This document shows positions 25 to 26,858 of a DNA stretch of 51,146 nucleotides, piece after piece (positions within the stretch are counted from its first letter, which is position 1; each line of letters opens with the position of its first letter). The notes below the pieces were generated by a model. That model saw only the letters and a list, made by a program, of their open reading frames with translations, ran no database searches and was not told the origin of the DNA. A program made the position numbers and the translations under genes. This stretch comes from Terriglobia bacterium (GTDB taxonomy: Bacteria; Acidobacteriota; Terriglobia; Acidiferrales; UBA7541): positions 1 through 51,146 of the forward strand of contig JAIQES010000031.1 of NCBI GenBank assembly GCA_020073705.1. The letters are read 5' to 3'.

Positions 25-1695
25 ATGAGCACGATATCACGGCGAGGATTTGTGAAAGGGGCGGCGTTGGCGCCGCTCGCCTTTACACCTTTCTCCCTAC
101 AGGCCCAGGCGGCTGCCCCGGCGGATCGGTTTGACGTTGTCGTCGCCGGCGCCGGACACAACAGTCTGATCACCACCGCCTACCTGGCCAAAGCGGGCTA
201 TCGCTGTCTGGTTTTGGAGGGCCGGCCCATAGTCGGTGGCTGCGTCAAGACTGCGGAATTGACACTGCGCGGGTTCAAACACGACACATGCTCCTCGGCA
301 CACACCGCCATCTTCGACAACCCGCTGATACGCGACGACGAATTGAAACTGGGCGACTACGGTTTGGAGTATATTTACCCGGATCCGGTCATCCACAGGC
401 CGTTTCCCGATGGAAGTTACATCACGCAGTGGCGCGACCTGGATCGCACCGTTGCGGAATTTGCGAAGTTTTCGAAGAAGGATGCGGCTACCTATCGGCG
501 GATGATGGCTGAATATGAAGCGGTCGCGCCGATCTTTGATGCCGTCACCTTCGCACCGGTCGGTTTTGGGAAATCACTCAACGACCGGCTGGCCGAGCAC
601 CCGCGAGGCAAGTATTGGCAGCGCCGCATCGCCATGGCCGCCTGGGATATCATTCGCGACAGTTTTGAGGACGACCACTGTCGTGCATTTATGCTGGCTA
701 GCCCCTGGTCGAATCAACCGGCCCAATTTCCGATGACGGGCCGGACTGCCTACGGTCCGTTCCAGCAGCAGCGCCACAGCCGGCCACTTCCCAAAGGAGG
801 ATCGGGCGAATTGACGCAGGCGCTGGCGCGCTTCATCGAGGCACATCATGGCGTGGTCCTCACCAACAAACCGGTTCAGCGGCTCATCGTGGAGAACGGC
901 AAATGTGCGGGAGTGGAATGTACGGACGGCAGCTCGTATCGCGCCGACAAGGCCGTGCTTTCCACGATGCACATCAAGCAACTCGTGGACATGGCGCCGC
1001 GCGAGTTGTGGGGCGAAGATTTCATGGACGGGGTGAACACCTGGCAGCCGGATGCCCAGGCGTTCGAAACCGATTACGCTACTACGGAACCTCCGAAGTA
1101 CCCCGTCCAGGGCGGCACGCTCTTGTCGGTGCATACGGAACTGATGTCTACCCCCGAACGCGCCCTCCGTTTTGCATACGACTATTCCATCGGTGTGGTT
1201 GATGTTGATGACCCGCCCCTGCATGTCATCTGCTGCAGCATTGCCGATCCGACGCGAGCCCCGGCGGGAATGCACACCGTCAAGGTTCTCGGCTACCAGC
1301 CCTACGATATCAAGGAAGGCCCTCAGCATTGGGACGCGATCAAGGAGGAGGTCTCTGCCGCGAATCTGAAATACCTGCGTCAGTTCGTGCCGAATCTGAC
1401 CGACGACAAGATCCTTGCGCGGATCGTTCACAGTCCACTCGATATGGAGCGCCAGAATCCGATGAACTGGCAGGGCAGCATTCACGCCGGTTCGCAGGGC
1501 CCGGCGCAGTCCGGCGCCATGCGCCCGGTACCCGGCTGGGCACAGCATCGCATGCCGATCCCTGGCTTATATCAAACCGGCGCGACGACCTTTCCTGGAG
1601 GCTCGGTCACGGGCGCTCCCGGGCGCAACGCAGCCGTGGTGATGCTGAAGGATTGGGGCACCAGCATCGAGCAAGTCTTACAGAAGAAGACGTAA
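25..1695 (+). CDS. Tat-exported FAD/NAD(P)-dependent oxidoreductase, copy 1 of 3 (PYROXD2/phytoene desaturase-like)
   Basis: 556-aa flavoprotein of the large phytoene-dehydrogenase/PYROXD2-like amine-oxidase superfamily. Residues 1-30 form a twin-arginine signal (SRRGFVKG, hydrophobic stretch, AQA-like cleavage region), so the mature enzyme should act in the periplasm. A Rossmann FAD loop (GAGHNS, residues 42-47) is followed by an acidic strand end (VLE) and GGxVK. The C-terminus has the family's second FAD signature (FPGGSVTGAPGRNAA). The start is supported by AGGAGGG 8 nt upstream. It is followed at 60-70 nt spacing by two paralogues and then a multihaem cytochrome, which suggests electrons leave via periplasmic cytochrome rather than NAD. 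Substrate is unknown; related proteins act on isoprenoid, steroid-like or amine substrates. Family is certain, reaction is not. Confidence 0.85.
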   Translation: MSTISRRGFVKGAALAPLAFTPFSLQAQAAAPADRFDVVVAGAGHNSLITTAYLAKAGYRCLVLEGRPIVGGCVKTAELTLRGFKHDTCSSAHTAIFDNPLIRDDELKLGDYGLEYIYPDPVIHRPFPDGSYITQWRDLDRTVAEFAKFSKKDAATYRRMMAEYEAVAPIFDAVTFAPVGFGKSLNDRLAEHPRGKYWQRRIAMAAWDIIRDSFEDDHCRAFMLASPWSNQPAQFPMTGRTAYGPFQQQRHSRPLPKGGSGELTQALARFIEAHHGVVLTNKPVQRLIVENGKCAGVECTDGSSYRADKAVLSTMHIKQLVDMAPRELWGEDFMDGVNTWQPDAQAFETDYATTEPPKYPVQGGTLLSVHTELMSTPERALRFAYDYSIGVVDVDDPPLHVICCSIADPTRAPAGMHTVKVLGYQPYDIKEGPQHWDAIKEEVSAANLKYLRQFVPNLTDDKILARIVHSPLDMERQNPMNWQGSIHAGSQGPAQSGAMRPVPGWAQHRMPIPGLYQTGATTFPGGSVTGAPGRNAAVVMLKDWGTSIEQVLQKKT

Positions 1696-1761
1696 CGGCG
1701 GCAATCGTAGGTGCAGCGCGCACGATTCACTCGACCAGCGCGTGGCAACGGAGGAACCGGA

Positions 1762-3429
1762 ATGAGCGAAATTACGCGGCGCGATTTCGTCAAAGGGGCG
1801 TCCCTGGCGCCCCTGGCCTTCAGGCCTTCAGTTCTCGCGCAGCAAACCGCCCAGCCCGATCGTTTCGACATTGTTGTCGCCGGCGCCGGACATAATAGTC
1901 TGGCCGCAACCGCCTATTTGGCAAAAGCGGGCTATCGTTGTCTGGTGCTGGAGGGCCGGCCAATCGTCGGCGGCGGCGCCAAGACTGCGGAATTGACGCT
2001 GCGCGGATTCAAACATGACACGTGCTCTTCGACACACATTTTTATTCAAGCTAACCCGATGTTGCGCAACAACGAATTGAATCTGGGCGACTACGGGCTG
2101 GAGTACATCAACCCCGATCCGATCTACCATACGGCCTTTCCGGACGGCGGCTATATCACGCAGTGGCGCGACCTGGACCGCACTTGCGCGGAATTCGCCA
2201 AGTTTTCCAAGAAAGATGCACTCGCCTTCCGACGTATGTACAATGAATTTCAGGCTGTCGAATCTCTCTTCAACGCTGTTAGTTTCGCGCCGGTGGGTTT
2301 TGGGAAATCACTCAACGACCGCTTGGCCGAGCATCCCAAAGGCAAGTTTTGGCAGCGCCGTTTGGCGATGTCGTATTGGGATATCCTTCGTGACAATTTC
2401 GAGGACGACCACTGCCGCGCATTTATGCTCCTTAGCCCCTGGGGGCACCAAGCGCCTCAAAACCCAATGACCGGGCGGGCTGCCTATCAGGTGATCTCAC
2501 AACAGAGCACCGGCCGCCCGATTCCCAAAGGTGGATCGGGGAAACTGACAGAGGCGCTGGCGCACTTCATCGAGGCCCATGGTGGCGTGATCCTCACCAA
2601 CAAATCGGTGCACCGTCTCATCGTGGAGAACGGCAAGTGCGCGGGCGTGGAATGTACGGATGGCAGCTCGTATCGCGCCGACAAGGCCGTGCTTTCCACG
2701 ATCCACATCAAGCAACTCGTGGATATGGCGCCGCGCGAGTTGTGGGGACAAGACTTCATCGATGGGGTGGACACGTGGCAGGGCGAAACGACCGAATGCA
2801 ATGCCAGTTACGCCACCACGGAACCTCTGAGGTTTCCGGTCGAAGGCGGCACGCTCACACCAGTGCATTCAAGCGTATTGGCAAACTCTGCGCGAGCCCT
2901 GCGTTTTGCATACGACTACGCCCGCTCCGCGGTCAATATGGAGGACCCCCCGCTATCTCTTATCTGTGCCACCGTTGCGGACCCGACGCGAGCCCCTGCG
3001 GGCATGCACACCATCAAGGTCATCGGCTACCAACCCTACGATCTGAAAGAAGGCCCCCAGCACTGGGACGCGATCAAGGAGCAGGTGGCCGAATCTCAGC
3101 TGAAATACCTCCGGCGGTTCACACCCAGTCTGTCCGACGATAAGATCCTCGCTCGGATTGTAGAAAGTCCTCTTGATATCGAGCGCATGAATCCGCACAA
3201 CTGGCATGGCAGTTGTCACGCCGGTTCCGCGGACCCGGCGCAGTCCGGCGCCATGCGCCCAATGCCCGGCTGGGCACAACACCGGATGCCAATCCCCGGA
3301 CTGTACCAAACCGGCGGCACGACCCATCCCGGAGGTTCGATCACGGGGGCGCCCGGGCGCAATGCGGCGACAGTCATGCTCAAGGATTTTGGCACCAGCA
3401 TAGACGAAGTGGTGCAGAAAAAAACGTAA
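1762..3429 (+). CDS. Tat-exported FAD/NAD(P)-dependent oxidoreductase, copy 2 of 3
   Basis: 555-aa paralogue of the preceding gene. The start at ATG 1762 is chosen over the in-frame GTG at 1711 because GAGGAA lies 5 nt upstream and the twin-arginine signal (TRRDFVKG) then sits at the very N-terminus. The FAD loop GAGHNS, the VLEGRPIVGG segment and the C-terminal GLYQTGGTTHPGG...GAPGRNAA motif are conserved. Similarity to copy 1 is uneven: the segment around residues 290-340 is nearly identical even in DNA, while the region immediately after it (GETTECNASY) diverges. Probably a periplasmic dehydrogenase with a related but distinct substrate (inference). Confidence 0.85.
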   Translation: MSEITRRDFVKGASLAPLAFRPSVLAQQTAQPDRFDIVVAGAGHNSLAATAYLAKAGYRCLVLEGRPIVGGGAKTAELTLRGFKHDTCSSTHIFIQANPMLRNNELNLGDYGLEYINPDPIYHTAFPDGGYITQWRDLDRTCAEFAKFSKKDALAFRRMYNEFQAVESLFNAVSFAPVGFGKSLNDRLAEHPKGKFWQRRLAMSYWDILRDNFEDDHCRAFMLLSPWGHQAPQNPMTGRAAYQVISQQSTGRPIPKGGSGKLTEALAHFIEAHGGVILTNKSVHRLIVENGKCAGVECTDGSSYRADKAVLSTIHIKQLVDMAPRELWGQDFIDGVDTWQGETTECNASYATTEPLRFPVEGGTLTPVHSSVLANSARALRFAYDYARSAVNMEDPPLSLICATVADPTRAPAGMHTIKVIGYQPYDLKEGPQHWDAIKEQVAESQLKYLRRFTPSLSDDKILARIVESPLDIERMNPHNWHGSCHAGSADPAQSGAMRPMPGWAQHRMPIPGLYQTGGTTHPGGSITGAPGRNAATVMLKDFGTSIDEVVQKKT

Positions 3430-3495
3430 TGGCGGCAACCATAGGGGCCGCGCGGACGCTTCCCTGGGCTCGCGCGTTGCCATGGAGGAATCGGA

Positions 3496-5088
3496 ATGAG
3501 CGCGATAACGCGGCGGAATTTTGTAAAAGGGGCAGCACTAGCGCCTCTGGCCCTGACATCCTCGGCTCTGGCGCAAACGGCGTCGTCAGAGCGTTTTGAC
3601 ATTGTTGTTGCCGGCGCCGGGCACAACAGTTTGATCACCGCCGCCTACCTGGTGAAAGCGGGTTATCGCTGTCTGGTGCTGGAGGGCCGGCCAACCGTGG
3701 GCGGGGACGTCAAATCGGCGCAGTTGACCTTGCGCGGATTTCAACACGATACCTGCTCCTCCGCACACAACGGCATTCAAGACAACCCAATGATCCGGGA
3801 CAATGAACTCAACCTCGGGGATTACGGACTCGAGTACATTTTCCCCGACCCCGTCTTCCACATGCCGTTCCTTGATGGGGCTTACATCACCCAGTGGCGC
3901 GATCCGGAGCACACCCGCGCGGAATTCGCCAAGATTTCCAAGAAGGATGGCGACACGTACTGGCGCATGTGGAAAGAATCCGGAAAAATTGAGCCTACAG
4001 AGAAATTTTGGCGGCGACGCTTGGCCATGTCGCATTGGGATATCATTCGCGACAACTTCGAAGACGACCATTGCCGCGCCTTTATGCTGGCGTGCCCCTG
4101 GTCGCAGCAGCCAGCGCAGTATCCGATGACCGGCCGGTTAGCCTATTCAGCTTTCAGTCAGCAGCGCCACAGCCGCCCCCTCCCCAGAGGGGGCTCTGGG
4201 AAGCTGACGGAGGCTCTTGCGCGATTCATCGAGGCGCATCATGGCGTGATCCTCACCAACAAACCGGTGCAGCGGCTCATCATTGAGAACGGCAAATGCG
4301 CGGGAGTGGAATGCACGGACGGCAGTTCGTATCGCGCCGAGAAGGCCGTGCTCTCGACAATCCACATCAAACAGCTCGTGGACATGGCGCCGCGCGAGAT
4401 GTGGGGCCAGGACTTCGTTGACGGGGTGGAAACGTGGCAGGCGGAATGTCAGATGTTTGTCTCAAATTACGCCACTAAAGAGCCGCCGAAATATCCGGTG
4501 TCCGGTGGCACGCTTTCGCCGGTGCATTCGGAACTTCTGGCCAGCCCCGAACGCGCGCTTCGCTTTGCGTACGACTACGCCTGCAGGGCGGTCAACGTCG
4601 AGGATCCACCGCAGCATATTATCTGCTGCAGCGTAGCGGACCCGACGCGAGCTCCGGCCGGCATGCACACCATCAAGTGCGTTGCCTACCAGCCCTATGA
4701 TTTGAAAGAAGGCCCCGAACACTGGGACAAGATCAAGGATCAGGTGGCCGACGCCAATCTGAAATACCTGCGGCGTTTCTCACCTAACCTGACCGACGAC
4801 AAGATCCTCGCACGGATTGTGGAAAGCCCGCTTGATCTCGAGCGCATGAATCCGCACAACTGGCACGGGAGTTGTCATGCCGGTTCATCAGCCCCGTCGC
4901 AGTCAGGCGCCATGCGCCCTATGCCAGGCTGGTCCGAGTATCGGATGCCCATCAACGGTTTGTACCAGACAGGGGCGTGCACCGCGCCGGGGGGTTCCGT
5001 CACGGGAATACCTGGGCGTAACGCCGCAGCGGTGATGCTCAAAGATTTTGGCACCAGCATCGAAGAAGTGCTGCAGAAAAGAACGTGA
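3496..5088 (+). CDS. Tat-exported FAD/NAD(P)-dependent oxidoreductase, copy 3 of 3, internally shortened
   Basis: 530-aa third tandem paralogue, start supported by GGAGGA 6 nt before ATG. Twin-arginine signal (TRRNFVKG), FAD loop GAGHNS and C-terminal GGSVTGIPGRNAA are intact. It lacks about 26 residues present in copies 1 and 2, namely the segment containing FAPVGFGKSLNDRLAEHP. The gap is in frame and the flanks (KKDGDTYWRM and KFWRRRLAMSHWD) align well, so this is a clean deletion in a helical substrate-domain region rather than a frameshift. The gene is therefore probably functional with altered substrate access. The cytochrome gene follows after 50 nt. Confidence 0.84.
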   Translation: MSAITRRNFVKGAALAPLALTSSALAQTASSERFDIVVAGAGHNSLITAAYLVKAGYRCLVLEGRPTVGGDVKSAQLTLRGFQHDTCSSAHNGIQDNPMIRDNELNLGDYGLEYIFPDPVFHMPFLDGAYITQWRDPEHTRAEFAKISKKDGDTYWRMWKESGKIEPTEKFWRRRLAMSHWDIIRDNFEDDHCRAFMLACPWSQQPAQYPMTGRLAYSAFSQQRHSRPLPRGGSGKLTEALARFIEAHHGVILTNKPVQRLIIENGKCAGVECTDGSSYRAEKAVLSTIHIKQLVDMAPREMWGQDFVDGVETWQAECQMFVSNYATKEPPKYPVSGGTLSPVHSELLASPERALRFAYDYACRAVNVEDPPQHIICCSVADPTRAPAGMHTIKCVAYQPYDLKEGPEHWDKIKDQVADANLKYLRRFSPNLTDDKILARIVESPLDLERMNPHNWHGSCHAGSSAPSQSGAMRPMPGWSEYRMPINGLYQTGACTAPGGSVTGIPGRNAAAVMLKDFGTSIEEVLQKRT

Positions 5089-5138
5089 AAGCCAGGACCA
5101 GGAGAGGTTAGCCGAACGATGAAAAGAGAGGAGTGCTT

Positions 5139-5708
5139 GTGAATCAAATAAAGGAAAGCTTCGTCTTGGTGGCGGTGCAAGCTTTGGCATTGCTTCTGTT
5201 GACCACCGTGCCACTGCTCGCCCAACAGGCGGCGACGTCACCGGTGATTCAGCAGACTGTGCCTGACAACCCGCTGCATCCATCGGGGCCCGTGCAACCG
5301 ATCCCTTATAGCCACAAGGTACACTTGGCGTTGGGATTGACGTGTCCGTTGTGCCACACGAATCCGGAGCCTGGCAAGCTGATGACCTACCCGGCCACCA
5401 GCACGTGCATGACGTGTCATGCCGCCACGGTTGACAAGAACAAGGCAGCCGCCCAGAAGCTCGATCCATTCGCCAAGTCTCAGCAGCCCATTCCCTGGGT
5501 GCGCGTCTATACCGTGCTTCCAGGTGTGAACTGGGCGCACCGCACTCATTTGCAGGCCGGCATGCAATGTGAAATGTGCCATGGTCAGGTGGCCCAGATG
5601 GAGGTCATGTCGGAAGCCACCAGCGTGGTGACGATGTATAGTTGTCTCACGTGCCACGTGCAGAACAATGCCAAGTCCACCTGCAATACATGTCATCTGT
5701 GGCCATAG
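5139..5708 (+). CDS. Exported pentahaem c-type cytochrome
   Basis: 189-aa exported protein. An N-terminal hydrophobic signal (VLVAVQALALLLLTTVPLLAQ) is followed by five CXXCH haem c motifs: CPLCH (~69), CMTCH (~90), CEMCH (~144), CLTCH (~169) and CNTCH (~182), with extra His residues (YSHKVH, WAHRTH) suited to be distal ligands, as in cytochrome c3/c7-like domains. GTG 5139 is preferred (AGAGGAG about 6 nt upstream); GTG 5133 is the alternative. Its place directly after three exported flavoenzymes makes it their likely electron acceptor, carrying electrons to the respiratory chain (inference). The exact cytochrome family cannot be fixed by eye. Confidence 0.85.
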   Translation: MNQIKESFVLVAVQALALLLLTTVPLLAQQAATSPVIQQTVPDNPLHPSGPVQPIPYSHKVHLALGLTCPLCHTNPEPGKLMTYPATSTCMTCHAATVDKNKAAAQKLDPFAKSQQPIPWVRVYTVLPGVNWAHRTHLQAGMQCEMCHGQVAQMEVMSEATSVVTMYSCLTCHVQNNAKSTCNTCHLWP

Positions 5709-5748: not shown

Positions 5749-6636
5749 ATGAGCCGTGTCGTCACAAGTACCATTGCGATTGCCGTCGTGTGCGGCGGCC
5801 TATGGGCCGCGCTGACAAGCAGGCCAGTGGCCGCCACCAATGATCAGAAGGATGATGAGAAGGCGGTCCTCCAGGCCGACCACTCTCTAGTTCAGGCCGT
5901 TGCAAATGGAGACAAAAAAGCAGTAGATGGGTTTCTAGACGCGGATTTCACTTGGACAGACTTGGACGGGATCAGCTCGACCAAGGAGCAGGTCCTGCAG
6001 GACCTCAACGCATTCGCGAGAGGCAGCGAAGGCAATGCAGATCTCAAGGCCTTTCGCCATGGCCAGGTCGGAGCTGTTTTCGGCGCTCAGCATGACGGAC
6101 GCTTCGAACGCGTGTGGGTGAAGCGTCCAGCGGGCTGGCGGGTGCTCGTCTATCAGCAAGTTCCCGATCGGGCGCCATCGTCCCCTGCCTATGCGGGCAA
6201 CGGGCCGGGCCCGGCGGACTGCGAAAATCCCTGCAAGGCGATCCCGTACAAGCCCACAACCGAGGCTGACCGCGAAGTCATTGCTTCGTTTCAGGCAATG
6301 AACACAGCGATCTGGCAGACTGACGCGGATGCCTGGGCCAGACACATCGGGGATGATGACTTTGGAATTACTCCCGGCGTTCTGGTCACCAAAGCGAATC
6401 GGATTGCAACCATCAAGAAGCAAAAGGAGATGAATGGCAAGCCGGTGCCGGCCCCATTGTTGTCCGCCCACTTTTTCGACTTCGGGGACACGGTGGTTAT
6501 GACAGCTCTGCACCAGCCGCGAAACGGTAAACCGCATCACTTTACTCGCGTATGGGTAAAGCGAGAAGGTGCCTGGCAGATCGTCGCAGGAGCACAGACG
6601 GAAATTCAGGCTGCTCCCGCCGCAATTACCCGATAG
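5749..6636 (+). CDS. Exported tandem SnoaL/DUF4440-like (NTF2-fold) protein
   Basis: 295-aa protein starting at ATG 5749 (GGGAGAAGGGAGAG upstream) with a signal peptide-like N-terminus (TIAIAVVCGGLWAALTS). Two similar NTF2-fold modules follow: residues ~40-135 (SLVQAVANGDKKAVDGFLDADFTW, ending in FERVWVKRPAGWRVLVYQQ) and ~165-285 (ending in FTRVWVKREGAWQIVAGAQ). The twin R-V-W-V-K-R...W-x-V/I strands mark the repeat. Such domains occur in ketosteroid-isomerase-like enzymes and in ligand-binding proteins; no catalytic residue can be assigned here. It sits 40 nt after the cytochrome gene, probably in the same operon. Confidence 0.75.
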   Translation: MSRVVTSTIAIAVVCGGLWAALTSRPVAATNDQKDDEKAVLQADHSLVQAVANGDKKAVDGFLDADFTWTDLDGISSTKEQVLQDLNAFARGSEGNADLKAFRHGQVGAVFGAQHDGRFERVWVKRPAGWRVLVYQQVPDRAPSSPAYAGNGPGPADCENPCKAIPYKPTTEADREVIASFQAMNTAIWQTDADAWARHIGDDDFGITPGVLVTKANRIATIKKQKEMNGKPVPAPLLSAHFFDFGDTVVMTALHQPRNGKPHHFTRVWVKREGAWQIVAGAQTEIQAAPAAITR

Positions 6637-6785: not shown

Positions 6786-8888
6786 ATGACCACCACCACT
6801 TTTTGCTCGCAGCCCCTGAAATCACTCTTGCGAATCGGCCTGGTGCTGCTGTGCGCCCTCTTTCTTTTTGTGGAGAGCGCATCGGCGCGTATCGTCCGTG
6901 TGGTCATCCAGCGCGTAGAAGCGCCCACTTTTGGCGGCACCTCATTCGGCGCCGCTGGTCAATATGAAAAACTCGTCGGCGTTGCGTATGGCGAGGTCAA
7001 TCCCAGCGATCCGCGCAACGCCATCATTCAAGACATTGCGCTCGCGCCACGGAACTCGCGCGGGATGGTTGAATATTCGATGGACATCTACATCTTGCGT
7101 CCCGTCGATGCGGGGAAGGGAAATCAGGTTTTGTTTTATGACGTCGTAAATCGGGGGAACAAATTCGCACTGGCTTGGTACAATGCGAGCGCTCCCGGAT
7201 CGAATGACCCGGCCAATGCGGCAGCCGCTGCCGGAGATGGGTTCCTGATGTCTCGCGGGTACACGGTGATCTGGACAGGGTGGCAGGGTGATCTCCTCCC
7301 CGGCAATGCCCGGATGGGGATTCGGGTTCCGACCTTGACGGTCGGATCGTCTGGAGAAGTGCTCAGCGCGACGGTGGATTCGGAACTCATCGTCAACAAT
7401 CGCGAGAGCACACTCAATTTGAACAGCGGGTGGTTCACGGGCCTCTCCACAAGCAGTTATCCCGCAGCTTCAATGGATACCAGGAAAGCGGCACTCACCC
7501 GGCGCATACGCGAACAAGATTCCCCGCAACTCATTGACCCTGTGGATTGGGCGTTCGCGGATTGTTCCAAGACTCCTTTTCCGGGCGTTCCCAGCACCAC
7601 TCAGGTTTGCCTGAAGGGCGGCTTCGACCCGAACTACATCTATGACTTGCAGTACCAGGCAATCGAACCGAAGGTCCTTGGTCTGGGCTTCGCGGCCACG
7701 CGCGATTTCGTCTCGTATCTACGCCACACCGATGAGGGTGAAGAACTCATTGGGCTGAAACGCGGCGAAGGCGAGCCGGGAGCTGCCATTATCTACGGCG
7801 CCTCACAGAGCGGCCGCTATGTCCGAAGCTTCCTTGACTTGGGCTTCAATGCCGACGAACAGGGCCGGATCGTGTTTGAGGGAATGATTCCGCATTTGGC
7901 GCCTGGGCGGCTTCCTTTGAACGTCCGGTGGGGACAACCCGGACGCGCCAACGGCCAGCACGAAGACCACCTGTATCCGGTTGCCGAGCTCCCTGCCACA
8001 TGGGAAAACGAATCAGATCCGATTCAAGGAATCAATGTGGGCTCGCTTCTCGACCGCTGCAGGAAAAACAAAACGTGTCCGAAGATCATGCAGGAGGTCA
8101 CAGCGACAGAATACTGGATGGGGCGGATGTCGCTCGACACGACCGACCCACTCGGGAAAAAGGACCTTCCGATCCCTGAGAATGTGCGGATCTACTTTCT
8201 GGCGGGTACCGAGCATGCCCCTGCAAGCGTTCCGGAGAAGGGAATCTGCCAGCAATTGAGTAATCCCGCTCCTTATCGCGATGCGCTGCGGGCCATGTTA
8301 GTCGCCATGACGGGATGGGTCCTCCACGACAAAAAACCTCCATCCAGCCGGTTTCCTATGATTAAGGACGGTACGCTGGTGAAACCACAAGACGCGGGCT
8401 TCCCGAGCATCCCGGGAGTGACGTTCACCGCCCTGTATAACTATTACCAGCGCCTGGATTTTGGGAAGGACTTCAAACCGCTGCAGATGAGCGGCATTGC
8501 GGCTCCCGCGAAAAAGGTCCCCAACGCCAACTACGTTTTGCTCGTGCCGAAGGTCGATAAGGATGGAAACGATATCGCCGGCGTCCGCTCCACCACCATC
8601 CAAGTTCCCGTGGCCACCTACACAGGTTGGAACCTTCGGGCGGCCGGGGATTCCGAAAACGAATCGTGCGGTATGACAGGCAGTTATATCCCGTTCGCGG
8701 TCCACAAGGCCGACCGCACGGCGAGAGGAGACCCGCGGCTTTCCCTCGAGGAGCGGTACGGCAGCCGTTCAAGCTATGTGGCCGCCGTAACTGCGGCAGC
8801 GAATGACCTAGTCAATCAGGGCTACTTGCTTCCGGAAGATGCGCAGCGCTTGATCAGCGAGGCGCAGGCGAGCAGCATTTTGCAGTGA
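6786..8888 (+). CDS. Large exported alpha/beta hydrolase (Abhydrolase_10-type)
   Basis: 700-aa secreted protein. A long N-terminal signal (hydrophobic GLVLLCALFLFVESASA) is followed by a conserved N-terminal domain (VQRVEAPTFGG-like start) and an alpha/beta-hydrolase core. The nucleophile elbow is GASQSGR with Ser at about residue 342. The C-terminal part carries TYTGWNLRAAG and YIPFAVHKADR, seen in this family. Length fits Abhydrolase_10 proteins, which are common in Acidobacteriota and proteobacteria near exported catabolic genes. Probably an esterase or lactonase releasing or opening a substrate for the upstream oxidoreductases (inference). No good ribosome site precedes ATG 6786, but the signal peptide supports the start. 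Confidence 0.78.
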   Translation: MTTTTFCSQPLKSLLRIGLVLLCALFLFVESASARIVRVVIQRVEAPTFGGTSFGAAGQYEKLVGVAYGEVNPSDPRNAIIQDIALAPRNSRGMVEYSMDIYILRPVDAGKGNQVLFYDVVNRGNKFALAWYNASAPGSNDPANAAAAAGDGFLMSRGYTVIWTGWQGDLLPGNARMGIRVPTLTVGSSGEVLSATVDSELIVNNRESTLNLNSGWFTGLSTSSYPAASMDTRKAALTRRIREQDSPQLIDPVDWAFADCSKTPFPGVPSTTQVCLKGGFDPNYIYDLQYQAIEPKVLGLGFAATRDFVSYLRHTDEGEELIGLKRGEGEPGAAIIYGASQSGRYVRSFLDLGFNADEQGRIVFEGMIPHLAPGRLPLNVRWGQPGRANGQHEDHLYPVAELPATWENESDPIQGINVGSLLDRCRKNKTCPKIMQEVTATEYWMGRMSLDTTDPLGKKDLPIPENVRIYFLAGTEHAPASVPEKGICQQLSNPAPYRDALRAMLVAMTGWVLHDKKPPSSRFPMIKDGTLVKPQDAGFPSIPGVTFTALYNYYQRLDFGKDFKPLQMSGIAAPAKKVPNANYVLLVPKVDKDGNDIAGVRSTTIQVPVATYTGWNLRAAGDSENESCGMTGSYIPFAVHKADRTARGDPRLSLEERYGSRSSYVAAVTAAANDLVNQGYLLPEDAQRLISEAQASSILQ

Positions 8889-9079: not shown

Positions 9080-9748
9080 TCATTTCGCCGCAGCAGGTTT
9101 CGGCGCAGGTACTTGATCCCAATAAGGTAGCCAACCGCGGCCCTTGATGCAATTTTGGCAATCCTGATCCGGCGTTGTTTGTGGGGGGTCAGGATAGAAT
9201 CCATGCCGATTCGGCATTTCGATCTTCGGCAGACTGTTCCTATCCATCACATCGGTTTCCTTAATGATGTTGCCCATATAGAGGATATAGGCGCTCAGAG
9301 CGTAGACATTGTCTGGGGTAAGCGCCCTCTTGCCACTGGCCGCGGGGTTCTGCTCTAGGGGCCATGGCGGCATGGAGCGGTTGATGAAGTCCCAAAGCGT
9401 CGTCGCAAACGGCATATAACTCTCTGAGGATATTATAGGGGTAGGAGTGGTGAGTGTGCCCCGGCCTCCCACCAAACGCGGGTACGGATATATGCCCCCC
9501 TCTCCCTTTGGTCCATGACAAACAGCACACTTAGCGGCAAAGATCGGCGCGCCTTCCTTGGCGGTTCCGCTTCCGGGAGGGAGTTCCTTTCCGTCGGAAC
9601 CTACAATTTCATCCGCGAGGCGCAATTCCGCTTCATTCGCCGGCCTCCCCACCTTATAGGTAGGGGACTGCGCCAAGGCTGCCCCGCACGCCAACAGAGC
9701 CATCACCGGCAGTAGAAAATTAGACTTTGAAAGTGCTATATGTCGCAT
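9080..9748 (-). CDS. soxD: SoxD-like c-type cytochrome, partner of SoxC
   Basis: 222-aa exported monohaem cytochrome c. Signal peptide MRHIALSKSNF...ACGAALAQ, then the family pattern YKVGRPANEAEL, LPPGSGTAKEG, one haem site CAVCH, PRLVGGRGTL, ATTLWDFINRSMP and VYALSAYILYMG, matching SoxD-type subunits of sulfur dehydrogenase. The distal Met could be in SMPP. The cytochrome passes electrons from the SoxC molybdenum subunit. An alternative start is ATG 9763; both lie inside the decayed soxC copy, whose reading frame overlaps this start out of phase. A C-terminal CQNC without His is not a haem site. No soxXYZAB genes are in the window. Confidence 0.8.
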   Translation of the reverse strand: MRHIALSKSNFLLPVMALLACGAALAQSPTYKVGRPANEAELRLADEIVGSDGKELPPGSGTAKEGAPIFAAKCAVCHGPKGEGGIYPYPRLVGGRGTLTTPTPIISSESYMPFATTLWDFINRSMPPWPLEQNPAASGKRALTPDNVYALSAYILYMGNIIKETDVMDRNSLPKIEMPNRHGFYPDPPQTTPDQDCQNCIKGRGWLPYWDQVPAPKPAAAK

Positions 9749-9895
9749 CTTCGACGCTCCCATCTGGCTTCACTCTCCATAGTTGAATCGGATCATTGAG
9801 AAATCCCCCGATTGCTGCGGTTTCTCACCAGTGCTCAATTTCACTGGCCGGTATGTGGGGTTCTCTGCTATCGCCCCACAGTTTGGCTAAGCTAC
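9720..9895 (-). pseudogene. Decayed 3' end of a second soxC copy
   Basis: Reading minus-strand in the soxC frame gives a run aligning with the end of the intact SoxC: SLAKLWGDSREPHIPA against ELAGLWGSERPGIHIPA, then ETAAIGGFLNDPIQLW against ETASISEFLNNPIQLW, then an identical RVKPDGSVEDATYS. A TGG codon (W) is adjacent to TGA at 9827-9825, so the frame is broken; homology stops at about 9895, 35 bp from the end of the intact soxC. About 50 bp (9743-9793) are nearly identical to 9965-10015 and the remainder is diverged with small indels. It is what remains of a tandem soxC duplicate, and soxD's start codon and ribosome site lie within it. Confidence 0.85.
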
Positions 9896-9930
9896 GCCAC
9901 ACTCCTTGCTAGTCGCATCTTTGCAGACTT

Positions 9931-11337
9931 CTAAAGCGCGCTGAGATTGGGGAGCTGGCTGTACGTCGCATCTTCGACGCTCCCATCTGGCTTCACTCTC
10001 CATAGTTGAATCGGATTATTGAGAAACTCCGAGATTGATGCGGTTTCCCAGAAGCTCAAAACTTTCTCGGCCGGTATGTGTATGCCAGGTCTTTCACTGC
10101 CCCACAGTCCGGCTAGCTCCAGCAACGTCGGTTGAATGTCGCCGTATTCATTCGTGCAACGGGACATAATCACAGTCTCTGCTCCGTCCCAATTCCAGGG
10201 ATGGCGGAAGCGCGTCCAGGACTTGGTGAATATGGGCTGCTGAAGGTTGGCGTCCTTCCAGGTCCGCCCGTTGTCGGTGCTGACTTCCACTCGGGCGATC
10301 TTGCCTCTGCCGCACCAAGCAATGCCGGAAATCTCATACAAGCCGCGCCCCGGCAGCTTATGCGGGTCCGATGGGAAGGTGATCAAGGACTTCGGTCCGA
10401 CTTGAGATTCGTACCAGCTCGCCTTGCCGTCCGGTTTCAAATTGGTGTAGCCGATGACTTCCGCCTCGAGGTAGTAAGGTTTGTCCACCAACTTAATGCT
10501 CGACAAATACTTTATGTTGAAGGTCCCTTGGAAACCGGGAACGAGCAGCCTCAATGGATAACCCTGTTCGCGCCGCAGCGCCTCGCCATTTTGACCGTAC
10601 GCCACAAACACGTCGTCCATAGCCTTTGCGAGCGTCATGCTCCTCGCACGCCCTTCAGTGCTCTGCCCTTGCGAAATACACCAGCTCGCCTGCTTTTGCA
10701 CACCGACTTCCTTGAGCAGCAGGGACAGAGGAACCCCCGTCCATTCACTGGTAGAGGTTCTGCCATGAACTGCTTGGATCATAGTCATGTCGGTCCGCCC
10801 TGCCTTCTTGTCGTGCGCATAGGCCTTAAAATGCATCAGGCCGCTGTTTCCCGTGCACTCCAAAAAGTGAACTCGGGATACAGAAGGGAAGCGCTTTATT
10901 TCCTCCACGGTGAAGGTCGTGGGACGGTCCACCATGCCGAAAATCGTTAGGATGTGCTTGCTGGGATCAATGTTGGGGATATGATTGTCGTGCATGACGA
11001 TGTAATGGTAAGAAGCTGGCGTGATGACGCCTATCGTATCCTGAAGCGGAGTCAGATTTCGTAGTGCCGTGGCACCGCGTGTCCCCGTCGCTGGCATGCG
11101 TACAGTGGTCTCGTAGCTAGACCGCCCGCCGTATAACAAATCCTGGATGGTGGGTTCGTCAGTGGCAACTCCCAGCTTGTTGGGGATGGGCGTGTTACCG
11201 ATTCCACCGTTGATCAAACCGGGGGTAACGCTCGCGAGCGCTTTGCCCTTCGCGAACGGTATCGAGCCCACGGCCAAGCCGGCCAGAGCTGCACCCCGCT
11301 TCAAAAATGCTCTACGATCAGACTTCTTGGAATTCAT
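9931..11337 (-). CDS. soxC: SoxC-like molybdenum sulfur/sulfite dehydrogenase, Tat-exported
   Basis: 468-aa sulfite-oxidase-fold enzyme. The start ATG 11337 has GGAGGT 7 nt upstream and places a twin-arginine signal (DRRAFLKRG) at the N-terminus. The molybdenum-cofactor domain carries HFLECTGNS with the conserved ligand Cys at ~161, then SEWTGVPLSLLL, and AYGQNGEALRREQGYPLRLLVPG, diagnostic of SoxC rather than plant-type sulfite oxidase. The C-terminal dimerisation domain includes YEISGIAWCGRGKIARVEVSTD. In the Sox pathway SoxC works with cytochrome SoxD on protein-bound sulfane sulfur; without SoxXYZAB nearby it might instead oxidise sulfite or another S-substrate (inference). Confidence 0.88.
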   Translation of the reverse strand: MNSKKSDRRAFLKRGAALAGLAVGSIPFAKGKALASVTPGLINGGIGNTPIPNKLGVATDEPTIQDLLYGGRSSYETTVRMPATGTRGATALRNLTPLQDTIGVITPASYHYIVMHDNHIPNIDPSKHILTIFGMVDRPTTFTVEEIKRFPSVSRVHFLECTGNSGLMHFKAYAHDKKAGRTDMTMIQAVHGRTSTSEWTGVPLSLLLKEVGVQKQASWCISQGQSTEGRARSMTLAKAMDDVFVAYGQNGEALRREQGYPLRLLVPGFQGTFNIKYLSSIKLVDKPYYLEAEVIGYTNLKPDGKASWYESQVGPKSLITFPSDPHKLPGRGLYEISGIAWCGRGKIARVEVSTDNGRTWKDANLQQPIFTKSWTRFRHPWNWDGAETVIMSRCTNEYGDIQPTLLELAGLWGSERPGIHIPAEKVLSFWETASISEFLNNPIQLWRVKPDGSVEDATYSQLPNLSAL

Positions 11338-11745
11338 AGTGGGAACCTCCAACTAAGCTAATGGTGGTTGCAGATTGTATATAGCGCCAAAATTGATTCC
11401 TGTCAACAAGAAGTGGGCCCGAATTTCCGATTTCAACTTTATCTCCCCGTGAAACTACGGGTCGCCAAACCGGTCAAGTTCTCCTCACGCGCCAGCAAGT
11501 CCGTCTCGAACCAGTGCAAGACGGGGTGTTCACCTCCGAAGGCTTCCGTGTGCTCGCCTCACGCATGAGCACAGGCGATGCATAACTTCTACACTCATAT
11601 CGCCGATTTGCAAATCGGAAATCCGAGATTAATGCTTTTCCCTTCTAGCCTGCCAAGCGCGTTCCGACCCTCGGTTCAGCCAAAGAGAAAATAGTGTGGT
11701 GGAATCAATGAATAATTGTACAGTGTGTGGTAGCTGAGAGGTGAA
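11338..11745 (+). other. Intergenic region between divergent soxC and MmgE/PrpD genes
   Basis: 408 bases with no convincing gene. It must hold the promoters of soxC (-) and the MmgE/PrpD-like gene (+). The only clear structure is a perfect 16-bp palindrome at 11603-11618, listed separately. The short open frame at 11368-11568 has no ribosome site and no recognisable protein character. Confidence 0.6.
11603..11618. promoter_or_regulatory. Perfect 16-bp palindrome, possible operator
   Basis: CCGATTTGCAAATCGG reads the same on both strands and lies about 130 bp upstream of the MmgE/PrpD-like gene. Its right half extends into CAAATCGGAAATCC, and the same 14 bases recur at 13678-13691 just before the SMP-30-like gene. 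A dimeric regulator site shared by the two genes is possible; no regulator gene is adjacent. Confidence 0.35.
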
Positions 11746-25700: not shown

Positions 25701-26858
25701 ATGTACTGTGTGCTGCTCGTGGCGTACTCACTGATGGCGGCCGACCGGTATCTTTTCCCGTTCCTCAATTACGACGTGCGCAAGGAGTTCGGCTTTTCCG
25801 TTCCCACTATAGGTCTTCTCTCGACGATCTTTACGCTGGGGTTGGGGATAGGAGGGTTGCCCACCGGATATTTGCTCTCGCGCTTCTCACGCAAGACCGT
25901 GCTGTTGCTCGGAATCGCAATATTCTCCGGGGGAACGGCACTGACCACCGTCACCACCGGTTTTTGGACCATGCTCCTCTGCCTGGCTGCAACGGGCATT
26001 GGCATGGCCATGATGGCGACGTCCATGTTTGCCCTCGCGGCAAGTTATTTTATCAAATACCGTGCCGCCGCCATTGGCTCGGTCAATTTTTGCTACGGTC
26101 TCGGCGGCTTCTACGCCCCGATCTTGGCTAGCGTATTCCTGATTTCATACAAGACTTGGCGCGCTCCGATGCTCGCGTTTGGACTATTCGGCTTCGCCAC
26201 GATTGTTTTGATCCTGCTCTTCGTCCGTTCCTGGTTCAGTGAGACGCATCGTACTGCCGAAGCTCGGAAGGGCGCCGGTGGGGCCTCGACGCTTCTGAAC
26301 AGAAATTCGATACTTCTGACAGCCCTAAGTATGATCCATGGCCTGAGTATGTACGGATTTCTCGGCATGTATCCACTGTATCTGCGGGACGGCCTCCATT
26401 TCCCACCAGGAACGGCCGCAGGAGTCTACAAGTTTTTCGGTGTCGGCGCTCTTGCCTCCATATTATGCGGCTGGCTAGGCGATCGCCTGTCGCCGCGCGT
26501 TGTCCTTAGTGGAGCTTTTCTCTGCAGTGCGGGTCTGGGCTACCTGTTTTTTCACGGTTCGGATTCTGTCTTGGCCGCGTCGATCATGACATGCGCCTAT
26601 GGCGTGGTAGCAAGCTCGATCCTTTACGTGAATCTTGCCGGCTATCATGTCAAAGCCGTGCGCGGCAGTTTGGCGAGCCGCGCATCGGGAATGTTCGTGA
26701 CCAGCCTTTATGCGGCTGCTGCATTTGCTGGCTTATTGATGGGCTGGATCGAAAAGAATCATGGCTGGCCGATGGCGGGAGCGATTCAAATGTCCCTGCT
26801 TTCTCTTGTCGGCGCAGCTCTCGCGCTTGCCCTGCGGCCCAGCGAAATGTCTATGTAG
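25701..26858 (+). CDS. MFS transporter
   Basis: 385-aa major facilitator protein with 12 predicted membrane segments and the loop 2-3 motif GLPTGYLLSRFSRKT. Substrate unknown; an organic-acid type is suggested by the neighbouring acyl-CoA condensing enzyme (weak inference). The ATG at 25701 leaves the first membrane helix short (YCVLLVAYSLMAADRY). The open frame continues upstream through TRGVAIA to a CTG/ATT at 25626-25631 placed behind GCGAGGAAAA, so a non-canonical start giving ~24 more residues is possible. There is no ribosome site directly before 25701. Confidence 0.8.
   Translation: MYCVLLVAYSLMAADRYLFPFLNYDVRKEFGFSVPTIGLLSTIFTLGLGIGGLPTGYLLSRFSRKTVLLLGIAIFSGGTALTTVTTGFWTMLLCLAATGIGMAMMATSMFALAASYFIKYRAAAIGSVNFCYGLGGFYAPILASVFLISYKTWRAPMLAFGLFGFATIVLILLFVRSWFSETHRTAEARKGAGGASTLLNRNSILLTALSMIHGLSMYGFLGMYPLYLRDGLHFPPGTAAGVYKFFGVGALASILCGWLGDRLSPRVVLSGAFLCSAGLGYLFFHGSDSVLAASIMTCAYGVVASSILYVNLAGYHVKAVRGSLASRASGMFVTSLYAAAAFAGLLMGWIEKNHGWPMAGAIQMSLLSLVGAALALALRPSEMSM

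Follow-up and report, generated by a model that had tools for sequence, protein, structure and literature searches.

The conserved unit at the left end of the window (the whole stretch of DNA analysed, 51,146 nt) is a two-gene module composed of a Tat-exported flavoenzyme and a pentahaem cytochrome c; here three flavoenzyme genes precede a single cytochrome gene. We consider it likely that the three enzymes, F1 to F3, are periplasmic flavin dehydrogenases which pass their electrons to this dedicated cytochrome, a relative of ActA of alternative complex III (ACIII). A sequence-only reading of the same DNA had described three tandem paralogous Tat FAD enzymes followed by a signal-bearing five-haem cytochrome, a description which the ORFs, the PF01593 matches and the motifs bear out. 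The span which it gave for the chain, 25–5708, ends with the cytochrome, and the DUF4440 and PF20091 hydrolase genes (to 8888) fall outside it. The genes are as follows:

25..1695, + strand: F1, Tat-exported CrtI/CrtO-fold FAD oxidoreductase, 556 aa (PF01593, 1.9e-12; SRRGFVK motif)
1762..3429, + strand: F2, paralogous Tat-exported FAD oxidoreductase, 555 aa (PF01593, 2.3e-16; TRRDFVK)
3496..5088, + strand: F3, paralogous Tat-exported FAD oxidoreductase with a 24-aa deletion, 530 aa (PF01593, 6.5e-14; TRRNFVK)
5133..5708, + strand: pentahaem cytochrome c, Sec signal, ActA-like, 191 aa (five CxxCH; PF14522, 3.6e-11)
5749..6636, + strand: secreted DUF4440 protein with two NTF2-like domains (PF14534, 1.7e-12, two copies)
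6786..8888, + strand: exported alpha/beta hydrolase (Abhydrolase_10; PF20091, 6.2e-42)

The F1/F2 and F2/F3 intergenic gaps are 66 nt each, 44 nt separate F3 from the cytochrome gene, and the PF20091 hydrolase gene lies 149 nt beyond its predecessor. F2 starts at ATG 1762, preceded by the ribosome binding site GGAGG, where the ORF list opens instead at an upstream GTG. The cytochrome gene starts with GTG and has the ribosome binding site AGAGAGGA; the true start of the DUF4440 gene is probably ATG 5749 and not 5668. A scan of the locus for promoters and terminators gave no informative signal, the counts lying within those of shuffled sequence.

All three flavoproteins belong to PF01593 (47.7–60.5 bits, gathering cut-off 19.8), and F2 and F3 are 74–75% identical to F1 (F2 74%). 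Their N-termini show M-x-x-[ST]-R-R-x-F-V-K and a hydrophobic stretch, which is the Tat consensus; Tat calls throughout are consensus readings of N-termini (S/TRRxFVK), and the motif is kept in relatives. The AlphaFold2 model of F1 (58-row alignment, mean pLDDT 89) has gamma-carotenoid desaturase 4rep as its nearest PDB fold (Z 35.1, 2.8 Å over 473 residues). Its top structural matches are 4rep, 3ka7 and 3nrn (Z 27–35), with CrtI among the nearest folds, and NicA2 structures appear in the Foldseek list at 12–14% identity in the alignment, such lists being taken as evidence of fold only. The three genes are under purifying selection (F1 versus its L016 counterpart, dN 0.08, dS 0.86; F1 versus F2, dN 0.17, dS 1.12).

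The cytochrome possesses a signal-like N-terminus and exactly five CxxCH motifs, and over 29 aligned cytochromes, all with five haems, the haem spacing is nearly constant. Its best relatives in the PDB by phmmer are ActA proteins (8k9e, 3e-21), and Foldseek matched its model (pLDDT 79) to ActA chains only (8k9e, 6f0k and 6lod; E 5e-6 to 9e-6). With these it shares the five haems, the pentahaem fold and 28–32% identity. Unlike ActA, it is free-standing, its N-terminus seems cleavable, and it falls in a separate clade; no gene for ActB or any other ACIII subunit lies beside it. Nor is it a QrcA (NF041781), for which it scores 69 bits against a cut-off of 180. Elsewhere in the genome, on contig C21, an ActA-like protein 32% identical to the window cytochrome adjoins a 1000-aa ORF, which we read, from its position only, as ActB-like.

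At two further loci of the same genome (C44 and C57), that of a soil acidobacterium, homologues of the Tat flavoprotein and of the cytochrome are again paired. A third, on C25 (L009 323–6764), carries a tandem Tat flavoprotein pair with no cytochrome nearby; this pair is preceded by FrsA-like and LVIVD-repeat proteins, and a related arrangement occurs in L022. When the flavoprotein alignment was run against 84,980 species genomes, 78 loci were retrieved, 76 of them usable; since the query was the flavoprotein alone, the presence of a cytochrome at these loci is a fair test. A cytochrome was found within 6 kb, usually at less than 100 nt, at 37 of the 42 loci with a Tat-bearing member, and at none of the 34 with Tat-less members only, these counts including the four loci from the genome to which the window belongs. 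The concern that homologous operons might be without the cytochrome, on which the earlier reading was to stand or fall, is thereby answered. The five Tat-bearing loci with no cytochrome nearby are that on C25, L022, L032, L065 and L057, of the last of which only 2.2 kb is visible.

The Tat group is made up of Acidobacteriota and some Gammaproteobacteria; the loci with Tat-less members only come from Alphaproteobacteria, Actinomycetota, Chloroflexota and others. Tat presence marks approximately one clade (three changes on the flavoprotein tree), so that the two counts are not made up of independent events, and the contrast between them reflects a single evolutionary pattern that persists to about 50% identity. 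In 13 sampled genomes of the family, where flavoprotein and cytochrome were each searched for separately, the pairing was the same as in the main scan: all subfamily cytochromes but one had such a flavoprotein at a distance of about 150 nt or less, and the lone exception follows a Tat-bearing spermidine dehydrogenase (SpdH) homologue. The module is present in dozens of other genomes, and because the pairing is repeated both within the genome and at most Tat-bearing loci it is not due to chance.

The principle of such a partnership is already established. NicA2 and Pnao are characterised flavoprotein amine oxidoreductases, exported by Tat, which have a dedicated cytochrome c, CycN, encoded beside them (PMC9396064) and also exemplify two flavoenzymes on one cytochrome (PMC9396064, PMC12224317), and more than 100 cases of a Tat flavoprotein amine oxidoreductase with an adjacent cytochrome c have been predicted (PMC12224317). 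The earlier statement that no pathway with this gene set is known has therefore to be given up. As in that Pseudomonas putida S16 system, the window locus has FAD enzymes of amine-oxidase/CrtI fold bearing Tat signals, a neighbouring gene that encodes a secreted cytochrome c, and several flavoenzymes with what appears to be a single shared cytochrome; unlike NicA2 and Pnao, its flavoproteins belong to the CrtI/CrtO branch. CycN is a monohaem cytochrome c, unlike the window cytochrome, which is five-haem and C7/ActA-type and so not a CycN-like partner. What appears to be new, judged by this analogy, is that both the flavoprotein subfamily and the cytochrome fold are different ones; searches of the literature turned up no relevant paper on a CrtI/CrtO-type enzyme that has a Tat signal and a multihaem cytochrome partner.

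By this model F1–F3, one subfamily of flavin dehydrogenases with presumably differing substrate preferences, would fold in the cytoplasm with FAD and then be exported by Tat. In the periplasm the co-encoded soluble pentahaem cytochrome would reoxidise the reduced flavin in place of O2, NAD(P) or quinone, O2 probably being a poor acceptor. The single cytochrome would serve all three enzymes, as CycN serves NicA2 and Pnao, and would deliver the electrons, through some further acceptor, to the respiratory chain. The genome carries genes for TatC and for cytochrome c assembly (PF01578). This explanation draws support from the counts of paired loci, the sampled family genomes, the single clade of flavoenzyme-linked cytochromes, the correlated distances and the fold. 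A Tat signal with an adjacent cytochrome c gene also predicts a cytochrome-reducing dehydrogenase (PMC12224317; PMC9396064), and there is the precedent of an IorAB-like dehydrogenase whose same-operon cytochrome c is required for growth on deoxyribose (PMC6365646). It is weakened by the five Tat-bearing loci noted above and by the Tat-less paralogues found in the same operons in some acidobacteria. Of the periplasmic dehydrogenation chain linked directly to cytochromes which had been proposed, export to the periplasm stands and the cytochrome is, on the gene arrangement, the most likely electron route; a pathway of six genes does not survive.

The deoxyribose dehydrogenase of Pseudomonas simiae, an IorAB Mo hydroxylase with a cytochrome c, offers an analogy as a periplasmic dehydrogenase with a dedicated cytochrome. 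Unlike it the window enzymes are flavoproteins, and IorAB shares the operon only in some relatives. In gp2 acidobacteria IorAB joins the operon; it is absent from the window locus. Ten Acidobacteriota loci have the order flavoprotein(s)-cytochrome-IorA-IorB, in which cytochrome and IorA are separated by about 30 nt or less, or overlap, and IorB carries a Tat motif where its N-terminus was read.

With IorAB placed directly after the cytochrome in those ten loci, one might suppose that the flavoenzymes are periplasmic oxidases using O2 and that the cytochrome, merely co-transcribed, serves another enzyme such as IorAB. Some Tat-only flavoprotein amine oxidoreductases with no nearby cytochrome are indeed fast oxidases (PMC12224317), and the five Tat-bearing loci devoid of a cytochrome would fit. 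We nevertheless think this unlikely: cytochrome and flavoprotein stand together with no IorAB near at the window, C44, C57, L016, L017, L031, L035, L041, L054 and other loci, and the cytochrome clade tracks the flavoprotein.

The Tat-less paralogues form a nested clade and lie upstream of a Tat-bearing paralogue and cytochrome at eight of nine loci (L023, L024, L025, L026, L029, L030, L033 and L036); at the ninth, L027, the contig ends early. IorA is thought to travel with IorB in export, and by analogy the arrangement suggests that the Tat-less protein may be exported as a pair with its Tat-bearing partner (hitch-hiking).

A little less likely than the oxidase reading is that F1–F3 are CrtO-like ketolases or desaturases which modify isoprenoids of the membrane, reaching them from the periplasm and using the cytochrome as an electron sink. 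In sequence family and fold they do resemble the CrtO beta-carotene ketolase and the CrtI desaturases: the nearest fold is CrtI/gamma-carotenoid desaturase and CrtO (NF045689) is the best NCBIfam profile. Their scores, however, are 249–266 bits against a cut-off of 1000, on which ground a carotenoid ketolase identity was rejected, and unlike CrtO and CrtI they are cytochrome-linked and predicted to be exported. In relatives the module has upstream of it 2-oxoacid dehydrogenase subunits, an M24 enzyme, a DctA-like symporter and GntR regulators (the symporter and regulator names having been assigned by eye), and the catabolic and transport genes of these neighbourhoods include none recognised as isoprenoid. 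Neighbours such as IorAB, the FrsA-like hydrolase, the M24 enzyme, 2-oxoacid dehydrogenase and transporters suggest a role in breaking down small organic compounds and not in carotenoid synthesis. For the terpenoid, steroid or polyaromatic substrates put forward earlier there is nothing in favour beyond the common CrtI fold.

The two genes downstream of the cytochrome are less closely tied to it, and the six-gene order raised by the sequence-only reading is not conserved. The window and L016 are the only loci where DUF4440 comes straight after the cytochrome in this order; about ten Acidobacteriota loci have DUF4440 genes somewhere close to the module, but the genome as a whole holds about 20 copies, and the protein is an accessory, weakly conserved in place. 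The PF20091 hydrolase, absent from all other homologous loci examined, is probably outside the module.

As to the origin of the triple, the counterpart of F1 in palsa_360 (L016:10001–11665) is 86% identical and is followed by its own cytochrome, the order flavoprotein-cytochrome-DUF4440 there matching the end of the window array (F3-cytochrome-DUF4440). The nearest relatives of F3 (L031, L034 and L035) are about 80% identical, 536 aa long and similarly short, and each is again followed by its own cytochrome; in the tree F1 groups with L016 and F3 with these three. Since the relatives of both have cytochromes of their own, the three genes are old paralogues that have been brought together locally round one cytochrome. 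F3 is short by about 24 residues, and two congeneric genomes have the same indel (seen as split hits) in a member which adjoins a cytochrome. Because the indel is common to congeners and the three nearest relatives are also short, F3 represents a real subclade and not damage, and decay was rejected on the shared deletion and low dN/dS. That the three genes arose by recent duplication and are redundant in function, or that they have decayed in part, as their tandem position, 74–75% identity and the deletion in F3 might suggest, is most improbable given the age of F1 and F3 in the tree, the sharing of the deletion and the low dN/dS.

The partnership of flavoenzyme and cytochrome is clade-specific. 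All flavoenzyme-linked cytochromes fall in one clade (39 rows, SH-aLRT 98), and flavoprotein and cytochrome distances over 37 loci are correlated (Mantel r 0.73, p 0.0005), a correlation to which gene linkage and common ancestry contribute. A close cytochrome relative follows a Tat-bearing SpdH homologue (L094 2420–4926, G022:C151; phmmer 3e-137 to 7d9i), and in the phylum sample more distant relatives lie beside GMC oxidoreductases, PQQ dehydrogenases and Mo/FeS proteins. Placed on the cytochrome tree, which has few columns, partner type (CrtO-like, SpdH, GMC, PQQ or Mo/FeS; checked by Pfam for representatives only) requires no more than the minimum of 7 changes, the SpdH partner being one locus and the PQQ partner four genomes of one genus. 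We propose tentatively, at somewhat short of even chances, that Acidobacteriota use the ActA-like pentahaem cytochrome as a plug-in acceptor for unrelated periplasmic dehydrogenases (CrtO-like, SpdH, GMC and PQQ, with IorAB sharing the operon), that each of these has a cytochrome clade to itself, and that the CrtI/CrtO fold, which is otherwise familiar from carotenoid desaturation, has here become a cytochrome-reducing catabolic dehydrogenase family, in some species with a Tat-less and Tat-bearing pair exported together. If this is true, cytochrome-linked flavin dehydrogenation reaches the CrtI/CrtO branch, a flavoprotein family which in this survey came almost exclusively from metagenome-assembled Acidobacteriota gains a role, and a dominant soil phylum has a modular periplasmic electron-collecting cytochrome. 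The cytochrome partner clade would then be a genetic handle for predicting dehydrogenase versus oxidase among exported oxidoreductases.

In other Acidobacteriota, cytochrome relatives adjoining GMC oxidoreductases or PQQ dehydrogenases were seen at L099, L101–L107 and L109–L112, and at L113 and L119. The window holds another dehydrogenase-cytochrome pair at 9080–11352 (minus strand), a Tat sulfite-oxidase-type molybdopterin protein adjoining a monohaem cytochrome c. F1 starts only 25 bases from the contig end. Positions 1–73 of the window are found again at 99% on contig C77 (L013 4210–4282; C77:19209–19281), where two DUF4440 genes precede them, in the arrangement seen ahead of F1's counterpart in L016, and sequence of no relation takes over beyond them. 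The true upstream neighbour of the window is thus probably C77, the join being an assembly or strain-variant breakpoint. The MFS transporters on C56 (window 25701–26858) and C77 (L012 8019–9176) are alike, as judged by eye from their N-termini.
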